Positions 22,676 to 43,287 of a stretch of DNA of 58,283 nt are shown here, in pieces. The notes beneath the pieces were generated by a model. That model was not told where the DNA came from. It saw nothing but the letters and a program-made list of their open reading frames with translations, and made no database searches. Numbering within the stretch: the first letter of the stretch is position 1; each line of letters opens with the position of its first letter. Both the position numbers and the translations under genes were made by a program. The DNA lies in contig JANQID010000059.1 in the NCBI GenBank assembly GCA_028282325.1, forward strand, positions 1-58,283. The letters are read 5' to 3'. This DNA is from Chloroflexaceae bacterium. GTDB lineage: Bacteria > Chloroflexota > Chloroflexia > Chloroflexales > Chloroflexaceae.

Positions 22676-24041
22676 TTACTGCGTAAACTCCCACAGCAGC
22701 ACCGTCTCGGTATACAGCCCGGCGATAACGCGCAGGCTTCCGTCGGGGGCGTAGCGTGCCTGAACCGCACTGTAGACCTCAGCGCCAAGATCCAGGGCGC
22801 CGAGTGGTTCGCCGTCGCTGACGCGCCAGAGATGGACGGTGGGCGCACCGTATTCCGGCGCAGCCGAAGCGAGGGTTTGACCGTCCGGGGAGAAGTCCAG
22901 GCTGGTGACAATATCAGTATGCTCGGTGAACGTGGCTATGAGGGAACCATCGCTTACTCCCCATAGGTTGGCAAACCCCCATTGATCGCCGGCAGCCAGG
23001 ATCTGACCATCAGGTGAGAGAGCGACTGCGCCCGAGCTTCCGGCAGCCGGGTTATGGTCACTCGTGCGCCTGTCGATCGTCTGAAGTAGTATACCATCGC
23101 TAACCTGCCAGATCAGAACCGAATGGTATTCGTCGGAATCACTTGCAGCCAGGGTTTGTCCGTCGGACGAAAATGCCAGGTCTTGAGCAAGCAATACATT
23201 GCCTTCAAAGGTCTGAACCACGCTTCCATCGCTGACGTTCGAGAGCCGAATCCTGAAATCATCCTCGCCTACCGCCAGAGTCTGTCCATCCGGTGCAAAC
23301 GCCAGCGCGCCGGAGGCGCCACTCAGGGTCGCGATTGGTTCGCTATCGGTCATGCGCCAGATCTGCACCATGCCGTCGGTTGCACTGGCGGCGATCGTCT
23401 GTCCGTCGGGCGCGAAGGCGATCTGGTTTGCTGTTCCCGAAAGACCGGCAAAGCTCTGGATGAGTCCGCCGTCGCTGGTCTGCCGCAGCTGCACCGAGCC
23501 GTTGCTACCAGCAATGGCGAAGGAGTACCCGTCGGGTGCCAGTTCCAGCGCGGCGATCTCGCCCACCTCGCTGGCGAAGCTTCGCGGTGTGAGCGTCACG
23601 GCGCCGATCGGCTCTACAGGGGCCGCGGCAGCGGTAGTAGGCGTAGCCGTAGCCGCCGGCGTCGCCGTGAGGGCCGGCTCAGTTGTAGGGGATGGCTCTG
23701 GTGTGGCGCTGGTGGGGAGTGGTGCGGCTGTCGTTGTGGGAATGGCGCTGGTCGCTTCAGTGGGAGCTGTCAGGGCGGTGGGCACCTCGAACGTTGGCAG
23801 GGCTATCTGGATAGGCGATTCGATCGAAGTAGCGGCAGGCAATTGACCACAACTAGTACACGTCGGCGGAAGTTCGTATTGGGTTGGCCGGAGCGCGGGC
23901 GTCTCGCCCGCCAGGAGACCAGAGCGGGCGAGACGCCCGCGCTCCCAGGGCGCAACTCCCTGCGAACTTTCGGAGAGCTGTACTAGTCAGAATAGTGATG
24001 CAACACAGCACTGTTACAACAGCAAGCAATCTAGGCAGCAA
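22676..24041 (-). pseudogene. WD40-repeat lipoprotein gene interrupted by a MITE-like element
   Basis: The long 3' part (22676-23842) encodes a Thr/Pro/Ala-rich linker and about seven WD40-like repeats, each with the pattern APDGQTLA...W.VSDG, forming a beta-propeller. The missing 5' end lies beyond an inserted element. From TTG 24041, with AGAGGAG 6 nt upstream, the sequence encodes MLPRLLAVVTVLCCITILT. Deleting the insert and one ACTAGT copy joins this in frame to SCGQLPAATS, creating a proper LTSC lipobox. In the present sequence the signal-peptide frame runs into a stop in the element. Export of the propeller is therefore probably lost. The related frame from 23842 starts at a TTG without a ribosome site. 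Confidence 0.8.
23858..23981. mobile_element. MITE-like palindromic insertion with ACTAGT duplication
   Basis: A 124-bp element bounded by ACTAGT at 23852-23857 and again at 23982-23987, consistent with a 6-bp target duplication. Its ends are imperfect inverted repeats (ACA...GAAGTTCG and CGAACTTTCGG...TGT). The centre is a long palindrome, GAGCGCGGGCGTCTCGCCCGC and its complement (about 23890-23945). There is no coding capacity. It splits the lipobox codons of the WD40 lipoprotein gene. Confidence 0.78.
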
Positions 24042-24095: not shown

Positions 24096-24610
24096 TCGGC
24101 AGGCCGGCGTATCCGCGCCGGCCTGGGTTCTGCATTGCTTCGGACGATGTGGCGCCGAATGCTACCAAACGATGCTACCCATGCCGCATATCACCCTGAC
24201 CCTGAGCGAAGCGAAGGGGAAGGGTCTCGGTGTTGTGGGAATCGGAGATTCTTCGCTGCGCTCAGAATGACCCCATGCGGTGTCTCCCACATTGTTTGGT
24301 AGAGGGCGCTCTCAGAATACCGAATTACCTGTAGACGTTGAAAGCGCTGCCGCCTCACAGTTAGCTCACGGCCTGGTGAGGTTCGTTGGAGTATGACAGA
24401 AGTATGTGGAGGCTAGTCGAGAAGAATTCACTCAGAGGAAATCGGTGAACTCGCCGGATCGAAACTGTTTTTAACTGTCGGGCCTGTTTGTCCGGCGCCA
24501 GGCGCATCCACTAGCAGGCCGTGTCTCTGCATAACGCCACTAGACCAGACGGCGCCCCAAGCGAGATTACACGGATCTGCCAGGACAATCACCGCGCTTG
24601 ATCGCAACCG
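24096..24610. other. intergenic region with a dispersed-type repeat
   Basis: No gene is visible here. At about 24184-24275 is the phrase CCCTGACCCTGAGCGAAGCG and, further on, GATTCTTCGCTGCGCTCAG with AATGACC. This resembles a dispersed intergenic repeat that I associate, from memory, with Chloroflexota genomes. The segment separates the WD40 remnant from the 3' end of the cobalamin operon. I see no clear intrinsic terminator for that operon. Confidence 0.5.
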
Positions 24611-25165
24611 TCACACGTCACGCACAGCGAGCGTCTTGATCTCAACCGGCAGGCCGGACACCAGCAAGTACACGCTGTCGGCGGCGGCGGCCAGGCGCTG
24701 GTTGAAACGGCCCAGCCAGTCGCGATACGTCCGGCTCAGCGGGTCGGCGGGGACGATGCCCAACCCGACCTCGTTGGTGACGATGATCAGATCCGACGGC
24801 GCGGCGCGACGCCAGGCCAGCAGCGCGTCAAGCTCGGCGGCGGCGCGTTCCCAGGTCGCGTCCTCGGCCAGCAACAGGTTCGTCACCCACAGCGTCACGC
24901 AGTCGAGAATGACCAGCGGCGCGAGCGGCGCAGCGGCGATCAACCGCGCGAGGTCGCGGGGAGCTTCCAGCGTGCGCCAATGGGCGGGACGTTCGGCGCG
25001 GTGGTTGGCGATGCGTTCGCGCATATCATCGTCGCGCGCCTCGGCGGTCGCGACGAACAGCACGTTGTCATAGGCGGCGGACAGGCGCAAGGCGAAGCTG
25101 CTCTTGCCGCTGCGAGCGCCGCCGGTGATCAAGATCAGGCGGCCAGGCGCCGGTTCAGCGTTCAT
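24611..25165 (-). CDS. cobU: adenosylcobinamide kinase / guanylyltransferase
   Basis: A 184-residue bifunctional enzyme that phosphorylates adenosylcobinamide and transfers GMP to it before nucleotide-loop assembly. The P-loop ITGGARSGKSSFA (about 13-25) is at the N-terminus. VLFVATAEARDDDM, ILDCVTLWVTNLL and VTNEVGLGIVPADPLSRTYRDWLGRFNQ follow the CobU/CobP pattern, including the guanylylated-His region (ERIANHRAERP). The start overlaps the cobQ stop by 11 bases. It is the last gene of the long minus-strand cobalamin operon. Confidence 0.95.
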   Translation of the reverse strand: MNAEPAPGRLILITGGARSGKSSFALRLSAAYDNVLFVATAEARDDDMRERIANHRAERPAHWRTLEAPRDLARLIAAAPLAPLVILDCVTLWVTNLLLAEDATWERAAAELDALLAWRRAAPSDLIIVTNEVGLGIVPADPLSRTYRDWLGRFNQRLAAAADSVYLLVSGLPVEIKTLAVRDV

Positions 25166-26681
25166 CGGCGATTATCCTGTACAGTTGTTGCATATCCAGC
25201 CGGGCGCGCACGGTCGCCGCCAGCCGGTCGTACATCCGCTCGCGGTCAAACCGCGCGCCGCCCTCGCGACCGATACCCTTGCGCGCCGCGAGGTTGGCCA
25301 GCAGCACGTGGCGCAGCGCATCGTTGTCGAACAAGCCATGGACATACGTCCCCGCAATCCAGCCGTCCGGCGTGATCGCACCGTCGGCGTCGGCGACGGT
25401 TTGCTCGCTGCGTTCGGCGACGTGAAGCAGCGGCGCGGCGGGCTGGTCGCGCGTGGTGCGGCCCATATGGATTTCGTAGCCCTGCCAATCGCAATGGCGC
25501 GCCCCGGCAAACAGCCCCCGGTCGGCGGCGACGCAGCCCCGTGCGCGGATGGTCTGCTTGTCGGCGTCGAAGGTTGTCACCACGGGCAGCAACCCCAGCC
25601 CAGTCGTCTCGCGCACGTTCGATTCGACCCCAAACGGATCGCGGATGCTACGACCGAGCATCTGATAGCCGCCGCAAATCCCCAGCACTGCCGCACCCTG
25701 ACGCGCCAGCGCGACGATGCGTTCGGCCAGCCCGCGCGCGCGCAAAAACTCCAGGTCGGCGACAGTGGTTTTCGTGCCAGGTACAATGATCAGATCGGGC
25801 GTTCCCAGCGCGTCGACGCGATCGACGAAACGCACGCCGACGCCCGGTTCGGCGCGCAGTGGATCAATGTCGTCGAAATTGCTCACACGCGGCAACCGGA
25901 TCACCGCGATGTCGAGATGAGCGGCATCCGTCCTCGGCGACGCGGCGGCGTAGCGGTCAAGCGCGACCGAGTCCTCGTCGGCGACGCCCACATCGGGGAT
26001 GAACGGAATAACGCCGAGCACCGGCGCGCCGCCGCGTTCCTCCAGAATGCGCACACCGTCGGCGAACAGGGCGATGTCGCCGCGAAACTTGTTGACAATC
26101 AGGCCGCGCACCAGCGCCCGTTCCTCCGGCTCCAGCAGCATCAGTGTGCCCAGCAACTGGGCGAACACGCCGCCCCGGTCGATGTCGCCAACCAGCAATA
26201 CCGGCGCGCCGGCATAGCCAGCGATGGCCATATTCACCAGATCGCCGCGCTTGAGGTTGATTTCGGCGGGACTGCCCGCACCCTCGATCACCACCAGATC
26301 GTACTCCGCGCGCAATGCGTCGAGCGCACCGGTAACGATCCGCCACAACTCGCCGCGCCGGGTGATGTAATCGGCGGCGGTCAGGCGCTCCCACGGCTTG
26401 CCCATCACCACAATCTGCGCCGCGGCGTCAGCTTCGGGCTTGATCAGCACCGGGTTCATCGCGACGGTGACATCGACGCCCGCAGCGGCGGCCTGCATCG
26501 CCTGCGCCCGCCCGACCTCGCGCCCATCACGCGTGGCGAACGAGTTGAGCGCCATATTCTGGGCCTTGAACGGCGCGACCTTCCAACCATCCTGGCGAAA
26601 GATGCGACACAGCGCGGCGACCAGCAGGCTTTTGCCCACCGACGACATCGTGCCCTGCACCATCAGCGTACGTCCGGGCAT
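25155..26681 (-). CDS. cobQ: cobyric acid synthase
   Basis: A 508-residue glutamine-dependent amidotransferase (CbiP/CobQ) that amidates four side chains of adenosylcobyrinic acid a,c-diamide. The N-terminal synthetase P-loop TMSSVGKSLLVAALCRIF and the signature KAQNMALNSF are present. The C-terminal class I glutaminase half contains the nucleophile Cys in VLGICGGYQMLG. I moved the start to ATG 26681, where AAGGAG lies upstream; the TTG at 26696 overlaps that site. It overlaps cobD by 19 bases and cobU by 11, so translation is likely coupled. Confidence 0.95.
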   Translation of the reverse strand: MPGRTLMVQGTMSSVGKSLLVAALCRIFRQDGWKVAPFKAQNMALNSFATRDGREVGRAQAMQAAAAGVDVTVAMNPVLIKPEADAAAQIVVMGKPWERLTAADYITRRGELWRIVTGALDALRAEYDLVVIEGAGSPAEINLKRGDLVNMAIAGYAGAPVLLVGDIDRGGVFAQLLGTLMLLEPEERALVRGLIVNKFRGDIALFADGVRILEERGGAPVLGVIPFIPDVGVADEDSVALDRYAAASPRTDAAHLDIAVIRLPRVSNFDDIDPLRAEPGVGVRFVDRVDALGTPDLIIVPGTKTTVADLEFLRARGLAERIVALARQGAAVLGICGGYQMLGRSIRDPFGVESNVRETTGLGLLPVVTTFDADKQTIRARGCVAADRGLFAGARHCDWQGYEIHMGRTTRDQPAAPLLHVAERSEQTVADADGAITPDGWIAGTYVHGLFDNDALRHVLLANLAARKGIGREGGARFDRERMYDRLAATVRARLDMQQLYRIIADER

Positions 26682-27757
26682 TGTTGCTCCTTGCAAGCCG
26701 CCAGTGCGGCGACGAGGCGGGCATTATCGGCAGGCCGACGCGCCGCGATGCGAATGAAGGTCGGCAAGCCAAATGATGTACAGTCGCGCACCAGGATGCC
26801 ATACGAGCGAAGACAGGCGCTCCAGGCGGCAGCGGATGGAACCGGCGCGAGCATAAAATTGACCGCCGAGGGCAGCGGACTCACGCCGATGGACTCCAGT
26901 TCGCGGCGCAGTCGGGTTGCAGCTCGCGCTAACGCGATCAGGGTAGCTTGCAGGTAGGCCTCGTCGCCGAGGGCGGCCAGGCTCGCCGCCTGGGCAAATG
27001 CATTGACCGACCAGGGCGGCTGCACAGTTTCAAGCGCCGCGATCACATCGGAGCTGGCCAGCGCATAGCCCGCGCGCAAGCCGGTGAGGGCGTAATCCTT
27101 GGTGAGCGAGCGCAGAATCAGCAGATTCGCAAAACCCAGCAGATCGCGTCCATCCCAGGCATCGGCGACAAAGCGCACATAGGCCTCGTCGAGCACAACC
27201 AGCGTGGCGGGGCTGGCGCGCACAATCTGCTTCACAATCGCATGATCCGCATAGACGCCGGTTGGGTTATTGGGGTTGCACAGGAACAGCAACCGCGGCT
27301 TGTAACGCCGGATATCCTGAATCAACGCCGTCGGGTCGATCTGAAAGCCTTGTTCAACGCAGGTCTGATGCGTGATCGCTTCCGCGCCCATCATCATCGT
27401 CGCGGCAGCATATTCGCCAAATGTCGGCGCGACGATGAGTACACGATCACCGGGACGCACAAACGCGACCGCAATCTGGTAGATCAGATCCACCGAGCCA
27501 TTGCCGACGAGTACGCGCGCCGGATCAACGTCGAGATGCTCGGCCAGGGCGCGGCGCAACGGCCACGCCCGCGGATCTGGATGGCGGTCGATCGGGGAGG
27601 CGCGTATGGCATCCCAAACGAGCGGCGATGGACCAAACGGATTGACGTTGGAGCTGAAATCGAGCCAATCATCCGCTGCCAGCGCGCTGTTGAAGCCGCC
27701 GTGCGGCACGCTCGGCACGCGCGCCAGTTCCGGGCGCGGCGCAATGTCATCACGCAT
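26663..27757 (-). CDS. cobD: threonine-phosphate decarboxylase (CobD-type PLP enzyme)
   Basis: A PLP-dependent fold-type I enzyme of about 364 residues. It makes (R)-1-amino-2-propanol phosphate for the cobalamin linker. FSSNVNPFGPSP near the N-terminus, NPNNPTGVYAD, VVLDEAYVRF and the PLP lysine in RSLTKDYALTGLRAGY are clear. Close relatives include histidinol-phosphate aminotransferases. The cobalamin role is taken from its place between cbiB, whose product uses the aminopropanol, and cobQ. The ATG at 27757 overlaps the cbiB stop by a few bases; a GTG at 27775 is an alternative start. Confidence 0.88.
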   Translation of the reverse strand: MRDDIAPRPELARVPSVPHGGFNSALAADDWLDFSSNVNPFGPSPLVWDAIRASPIDRHPDPRAWPLRRALAEHLDVDPARVLVGNGSVDLIYQIAVAFVRPGDRVLIVAPTFGEYAAATMMMGAEAITHQTCVEQGFQIDPTALIQDIRRYKPRLLFLCNPNNPTGVYADHAIVKQIVRASPATLVVLDEAYVRFVADAWDGRDLLGFANLLILRSLTKDYALTGLRAGYALASSDVIAALETVQPPWSVNAFAQAASLAALGDEAYLQATLIALARAATRLRRELESIGVSPLPSAVNFMLAPVPSAAAWSACLRSYGILVRDCTSFGLPTFIRIAARRPADNARLVAALAACKEQQCPDVR

Positions 27758-28754
27758 GAAGTTGGTGCTTCCCACGTTCCTTCACCACAAGCCATGCCAA
27801 CGCGAGGCCGAACGCCAACCCGATCGCCCGATTCACAATGCATGCGCCGCGTTGTATATCAGCAGCAGTCGGCGGCCGCCCCGCGCTATTGATCCGATAG
27901 TGGCCGAGCTTTTCCAGACACACGCCGAGCGCCCCGGCGATAGCGGCCATCGGCCAGCCGGCGTTGGGGCTGGCAGTGCGCGCATAGTCGCGCAGCATCA
28001 CCCGCCACGCCTGGCGCCTAGCGCCGCCGCACCCCGCCGCTGCCACTGTGATCAGCAGCGCCGTCAGCCGCGCCGGCGCTAGATTGAGCGCATCGTCAAG
28101 GCGTGCAGAGACCTTGCCCAGGTGCTCGTAGCGCCCGCGATAGCCCAACATTGCATCCAATGTATTAATCGTGCGGTACGCCCAGACGCCCGGCAAACCA
28201 AACAGCGCATAGAAGAACAAAGGCGCAACAACGGAATCGCTCGCATTTTCGGCCAGCGACTCAATCGCCGCCGCCGCGATCAGCGTCGCATCAAGCATTG
28301 CGGCATCGCGGCTGACCAGCCAGCGCAACCCTGCGCGCGCCGCGTCAATATCGCCGACGCACAACGGCTGGCGCACATGCTCGCCGGCGCGGGTCAACGT
28401 ACGCCAGGAAAATGCGGATTTCAGCAACCAGATTTCCAGCCAGTGCGCCAGCATACGTATACGTCGATCAGGATTGCGCGCCGCGCGTGCAATCGCCAAC
28501 GTCGGGACAACGGCTGTCGTTACGGCGACAACCGCCGCCCCGGCGCCATACAACAGCTCGCGACGCGGTGCGGCGCGCGGCGCAGCCCGATCCAGCACGT
28601 CGATGAGCTTGCCGATCCAGACAACCGGATGCAGCATGGCCGGCGGTTCGCCAATAGTCCAATCGAAGATCAGCGCCAGCGCCAGCGTACGAGCGCGTCC
28701 TTCAAGCGGACTACTGCTCCTTGAGGTAGTGGTTTTGGATTCGTCGCAACTCAT
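27750..28754 (-). CDS. cbiB: adenosylcobinamide-phosphate synthase
   Basis: A 334-residue membrane protein that attaches aminopropanol (phosphate) to adenosylcobyric acid. Family landmarks are DWTIGEPPAMLHPVVWIGKLI near the N-terminus, AAAAIESLAENASDSVVAPLFFYALFGLPGVWAYRTINTLDAMLGY in the middle, and DYARTASPNAGWPMAAIAGALG. Several transmembrane helices are evident. The first 20 residues (MSCDESKTTTSRSSSPLEGR) look unlike the family and overlap the end of the upstream unknown gene by 44 bases, so the real start may be further in. Confidence 0.93.
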   Translation of the reverse strand: MSCDESKTTTSRSSSPLEGRARTLALALIFDWTIGEPPAMLHPVVWIGKLIDVLDRAAPRAAPRRELLYGAGAAVVAVTTAVVPTLAIARAARNPDRRIRMLAHWLEIWLLKSAFSWRTLTRAGEHVRQPLCVGDIDAARAGLRWLVSRDAAMLDATLIAAAAIESLAENASDSVVAPLFFYALFGLPGVWAYRTINTLDAMLGYRGRYEHLGKVSARLDDALNLAPARLTALLITVAAAGCGGARRQAWRVMLRDYARTASPNAGWPMAAIAGALGVCLEKLGHYRINSAGRPPTAADIQRGACIVNRAIGLAFGLALAWLVVKERGKHQLHA

Positions 28755-42977: not shown

Positions 42978-43066
42978 GCATAAAAAACCCGTGAATGCTG
43001 GCGACACACTCCTAGATTGCCAGATTTTCACGTGTCTTTACCCGCCCTTCCGCGAGGCGACTTAAA

Positions 43067-43202
43067 GATCAACGTAGAGGCGGTCGACCTGGCTTAGATG
43101 AATGCATAAGCGTTCATCCTTACAGTTGCGGGACAGCGCCGGACTCGCACCGGCTTCGCCTTTATGCCCTGGCTTCCGATCCTCAGGCGCCTCTACTGAT
43201 CA
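43067..43202 (-). promoter_or_regulatory. cobalamin (adenosylcobalamin) riboswitch
   Basis: The minus strand contains the conserved core GGTGCGAGTCCGGCGCTGTC (about 43131-43152), then CCGCAACTGTAA and, near the 3' end, the B12-box-like AGCCAGGTCGACCGCC. The ends GATCAGTAGAGGCG and CGCCTCTACGTTGATC pair to form P1. It controls the 18-kb operon from cobO to cobU by attenuation at the adjacent terminator. Confidence 0.94.
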
Positions 43203-43287
43203 GTATGTAGTTGATGTCAACGATGCCGCCGCAACAACACACGACGACGATATACAGGTCTGAAAGTCTGGTGAATGAATGCGCGTA

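Follow-up and report, generated by a model that had tools for sequence, protein, structure and literature searches.

A WD40 lipoprotein gene interrupted at its lipobox

The window, meaning the whole 58,283-nucleotide stretch of DNA that was analysed, is contig C140 of a 4.6-Mb, 140-contig assembly of a Chloroflexaceae bacterium. On its minus strand, the TTG codon at 24041 lies about 7 nt 3′ of the sequence AGAGGAG (an AGGAG box), and translation from this codon gives LLPRLLAVVTVLCCITI. Beyond a palindromic element the same strand reads CGQLPAATSIES, continuing into a Pro/Thr-rich linker and then a WD40 propeller (Pfam PF00400, E 5.5e-27 in this downstream stretch). The hexamer ACTAGT occurs at 23852-23857 and again at 23982-23987, with 124 bp of DNA intervening. 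Coordinates of the features are collected in Table 1.

Table 1. Features of the interrupted gene and of the element within it (window coordinates)
Feature	Position	Strand	Remark
Interrupted lipoprotein gene: TTG start and signal-peptide part, MLPRLLAVVTVLCCITIL, up to lipobox L	23988..24041	-	
Interrupted lipoprotein gene, remainder: lipobox Cys, Pro/Thr-rich linker, WD40 propeller	22676..23851	-	Cys is TGT 23851-23849
128-bp non-autonomous IS630-type element (MITE), GTACAC...CTGTAC	23856..23983	.	Read with a TA target duplication; ends shared with IS630 elements
TA of target CTAG, left copy	23854..23855	.	CTAG 23853-23856
TA of target CTAG, right copy	23984..23985	.	CTAG 23983-23986
Left terminal inverted repeat, about 33 bp including CTAG	23853..23885	+	Similarity to IS630 ends
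Right terminal inverted repeat, about 33 bp including CTAG	23954..23986	-	Similarity to IS630 ends
Perfect GC-rich hairpin core, 22-nt arms and 12-nt loop	23890..23945	.	Also in other Chloroflexales repeat shells

A sequence-only reading of this locus had described a MITE-like insertion, a 124-bp palindrome between two copies of ACTAGT, and this observation was confirmed. The palindrome is imperfect: complementarity is 74% between the outer 35-nt arms, and the inner 22-nt arms (23890-23911 and 23924-23945) pair without mismatch. As single-stranded DNA the element has a fold of -50.6 kcal/mol (z = -8.4), and none of 200 shuffled sequences was as stable. The motif CTAGTACA is found in the window at the two ends of the element only, against an expectation of 0.21 occurrences. 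The 128-bp element carries short read-through ORFs and no transposase gene, and an Rfam search returned no family at this position. Its short length, the missing transposase gene, several dispersed copies and terminal inverted repeats resembling those of IS630 are all traits of an IS630-derived MITE.

Joining the flanks by removing one 130-bp period and keeping one CTAG produced ...ILTSCGQLPAATSIES... in a single frame. The joined sequence reads ...ILTSCGQLP..., with a strict LTSC lipobox preceding the WD40 propeller, and the pre-insertion gene with an in-frame lipobox that had been proposed was thus regained. Judged from its sequence, the putative signal peptide of the joined gene would be followed by a match to the lipobox pattern [LVI][ASTVI][GAS]C. 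WD40 relatives in the family, from two other genomes, also carry lipoprotein signals (...ILLSGC in G004 and ...LLVSC in G038), which makes the lipoprotein reading of the interrupted gene credible.

With the element in place, the insertion of 130 bp is not divisible by three, so the signal-peptide frame enters the element, continues for a few dozen residues and is terminated by the TAG within the far CTAG. The sole remaining WD40 ORF extends from TTG 23842 to the stop at 22676 (388 aa). Because this ORF is left with no signal peptide, lipobox or visible ribosome-binding site, export of the lipoprotein was very probably lost through the insertion. The loss of export that had been claimed is thus partly supported: it follows from the sequence as a probable consequence for the protein.

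The WD40 frame is open across the entire element (436 codons from stop to stop), and bacterial MITEs may fuse in frame with genes or regulate mRNAs (review PMC2229807), so the element could have been kept as a regulatory hairpin or could belong to a functional fusion gene. However, the open frame contains no ATG, GTG or TTG ahead of 23842, the signal frame terminates inside the element, and the genome collection yielded no relative arranged in this way. We consider a maintained function of this kind very unlikely.

Copies of the element in the host genome and in other Chloroflexales

Further copies with matching ends, which the sequence-only reading had anticipated, were found at 10 other places in the host genome, mostly at contig ends and some as halves; their visible ends are CTAGTACAG or a close variant. 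Copies ending in CTAGTACAG...CTGTACTAG also occur in nine other Chloroflexales genomes, with varying interiors and outer flanks. Of 82 Chloroflexales genomes, 10 contain the pattern CTAGTACAGN7GAAG, the highest count in a single genome being 25; the reversed control pattern gave at most one match per genome and strand. Complete copies are 82-169 bp long and dissimilar in their interiors. So far as the open-licence literature shows, this IS630-type MITE group in Chloroflexales is new, and its kind is already known.

Several host contigs start or stop inside the element, showing that the assembler broke there, and the junction in the window might on this ground be an assembly chimera at a repeat with no real insertion behind it. 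Flanks joined at random, however, should not be expected to share a CTAG and to combine into one frame with an exact lipobox, and we regard a chimera as highly improbable.

Identity of the window copy to the other host-genome copies is about 71-82%. Five of the latter match one copy-derived query at 96-97%, and since the window copy falls outside this close group, the intact WD40 frame is the one argument for a recent insertion. The genome collection yielded no related strain lacking the element and no natural empty site; no orthologue of the WD40 gene turned up in it, hence no natural empty site for the window element. The claim of recent transposition is thus partly supported, by the uneroded WD40 ORF; the copy is diverged from the others in the host genome, and neither a sister strain nor an empty site was found. 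Empty sites were likewise sought for copies in other genomes and none was found, the flanks being too diverged.

Two further observations concern individual copies. In a genome of the same family (G003; L123, L272), a 145-bp CTAGTACAG element has about 45 matches. Joining the flanks of the host-genome copy at G000:C118:161460-161590 (L115) gives a 180-codon stop-to-stop frame, and this copy possibly marks a second interrupted gene.

The ends of the element match those of IS630-family insertion sequences

In two genomes (G036 and G002) the C-terminus of a DDE_3-type transposase stops a few tens of bases from a CTAGTACAG-type end, and this C-terminus served as the query that yielded complete IS630-family elements in two other Chloroflexales genomes. 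One, of 1372 bp, is in a Herpetosiphonaceae genome (L127) and another, of 1329 bp, in G004 (L128). In both, transposase ORFs with DDE_3 and HTH_32 domains lie between CTAGTACAG/CTAGTACAC and CTGTACTAG/GTGTACTAG ends, and the termini read CTAGTACA...TGTACTAG. A stretch of about 33 bp at the CTAGTACAG ends is common to the MITE and to the IS630 ends that abut DDE_3 transposase genes. Over the 25 bases past CTAGTACA, 17-18 positions at the right end of the element in the window are identical to the IS630 ends of G036, G002 and Herpetosiphonaceae (R), a level reached in 0 of 5000 shuffles, and 13-15 positions at its left end; similarity of the right end to the G004 IS630 ends was weaker. Among relatives drawn from many phyla, CTAGTAC or CTAGTGC ends are present in many, and CTAGTAC or similar ends occur in several of these phyla.

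The search for a transposase that the sequence-only reading had called for succeeded in relatives, where IS630 elements have the same ends; no transposase with matching ends was found in the host assembly. Since that assembly consists of 140 contigs, several of which end inside the element, a matching transposase could lie hidden from it. An IS630 copy on contig C99 (L037), which alone in the host genome gave a DDE_3 match exceeding the cut-off, was rejected as the partner, having no CTAGTACA end in the stretch examined. A DDE_5 element is also present, on C123 (L124). The IS701 family, which makes 4-bp duplications, was rejected as well: its published end consensus, ---YACT-Y, differs (PMC2266710), and the shared ends go with transposases of the DDE_3 and not the IS701 type.

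At another locus (L129:100-220) an IS630 end is followed head to tail by a second element, with one CTAG common to both. This arrangement suggests that the first element offered its CTAG as the target for the second.

The target site is CTAG

Nearly all complete copies have CTAG on either side, and the adjoining outer bases are mostly unmatched (a-CTAG / CTAG-c on C13 and in G037; g-CTAG / CTAG-g in G003). Five IS630 copies in Calothrix PCC 7716 have their boundary at CTAG in the same way, with variable outer bases. The duplication of ACTAGT that had been read from the window alone was consequently not borne out. A true 6-bp duplication, made by a transposase family with 6-bp staggered cuts, would account for the ACTAGT that flanks both the window copy and the copy at C118:161460, but CTAG alone is common to the two sides in the other complete copies, as it is in the Calothrix partner elements, and we regard this explanation as extremely improbable. 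Because only CTAG is shared by both sides across copies, the common target is CTAG, and ACTAGT is this tetramer with two bases added by coincidence: the hexamers here derive from an original A-CTAG-T site together with the inner bases of the element, T on the left and A on the right. The locus shows that a palindromic target such as CTAG can pass for a longer duplication. In the window CTAG is strongly depleted: base composition would predict 214 occurrences, and 38 were counted.

The element has TA on either side, and at a CTAG target duplications of 2 bp and 4 bp look identical. One copy, in G060, is flanked left and right by CTGG, for which a 4-bp duplication is at least as good an explanation as one of TA. 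In the host genome, a copy end on C79 reads CTGTACTAA, a CTAA end, and the left end CTAATACAG...TCCGAA was not found; a CTAA end with no matching left end mildly favours TA. IS630 and ISY100 duplicate TA (PMC2170065), and a preference for TA in CTAG is named in the title of Tenzen & Ohtsubo 1991, cited there. A 4-bp target duplication (CTAG or CTGG) made by the same IS630-like transposases thus draws on the CTAG that flanks nearly all complete copies and on the CTGG of the G060 copy, but the TA duplication of IS630 and ISY100 and the C79 end speak against it, and we judge it unlikely. The best reading of positions 23856-23983 is a 128-bp IS630-type MITE flanked by TA.

A model for the insertion

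Taken together, these results support with high confidence a model in which an IS630-type MITE, mobilised in trans into the TA of a CTAG, broke a WD40-lipoprotein gene. An IS630 transposase would have moved the 128-bp non-autonomous element in trans, and the insertion point would have been the TA of the CTAG where an A-CTAG-T sequence formed the lipobox codons ACT AGT. Repair of a 2-nt stagger would then have duplicated TA (TA rather than CTAG, we infer) and lengthened the gene by 130 bp. As a result the exported lipoprotein would have been lost, or at best a cytoplasmic WD40 fragment would be made. Against this model stand the lack of a partner transposase in the assembly and of a natural empty site, the identity of only about 71-82% between the window copy and the others in the host genome, and the CTGG of the G060 copy.

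Relation to known systems

The nearest descriptions in the literature are of RUP from Streptococcus pneumoniae, a 107-bp MITE for which IS630-Spn1 is the proposed mover (PMC2229807). Going by its description there, RUP resembles the window element in being short and non-coding, with IS630-family ends and a TA-containing target. It differs in its host, in lying between genes or within IS elements whereas the window copy lies inside a protein gene, and in having a proposed partner, whereas none was found in the host assembly for the window element. With IS630 and ISY100 (Tc1/mariner/IS630 family) the window element has in common the CTAG preference known for IS630 and, on the best reading, the duplication of TA (PMC2170065), and its termini are shared with DDE_3-transposase elements in relatives; unlike them, it has no transposase and has a GC-rich hairpin interior. 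Correia/NEMIS, ERIC and RPE, again going by description, are palindromic MITEs of roughly 100-200 bp, mostly with TA at their ends and at times intragenic (PMC2229807), but they occur in other hosts.

An IS630-type MITE group is thereby documented in Chloroflexales along with the insertion sequences identified as its partners, and a single locus displays target site, frame and probable lost function. The case clearly illustrates an ordinary process and is not a new kind of system.

Additional observations

The GC-rich core of the element (window 23890-23945; L252-L271) recurs in Chloroflexales genomes within inverted-repeat shells of at least three unrelated kinds, namely CTAGTACAG, GTACGTGTTCACACTT and GCGCGAATAAGCCC. 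It is conceivable, though doubtful, that this hairpin core is a module of its own, swapped among at least three unrelated shells, and that these MITEs are built from interchangeable ends and cores.

Elsewhere in the window, ORFs at about 24600-28750 look by eye like cobalamin-synthesis genes, and a cobalamin riboswitch (Rfam RF00174) is located at 43062-43209 on the minus strand.
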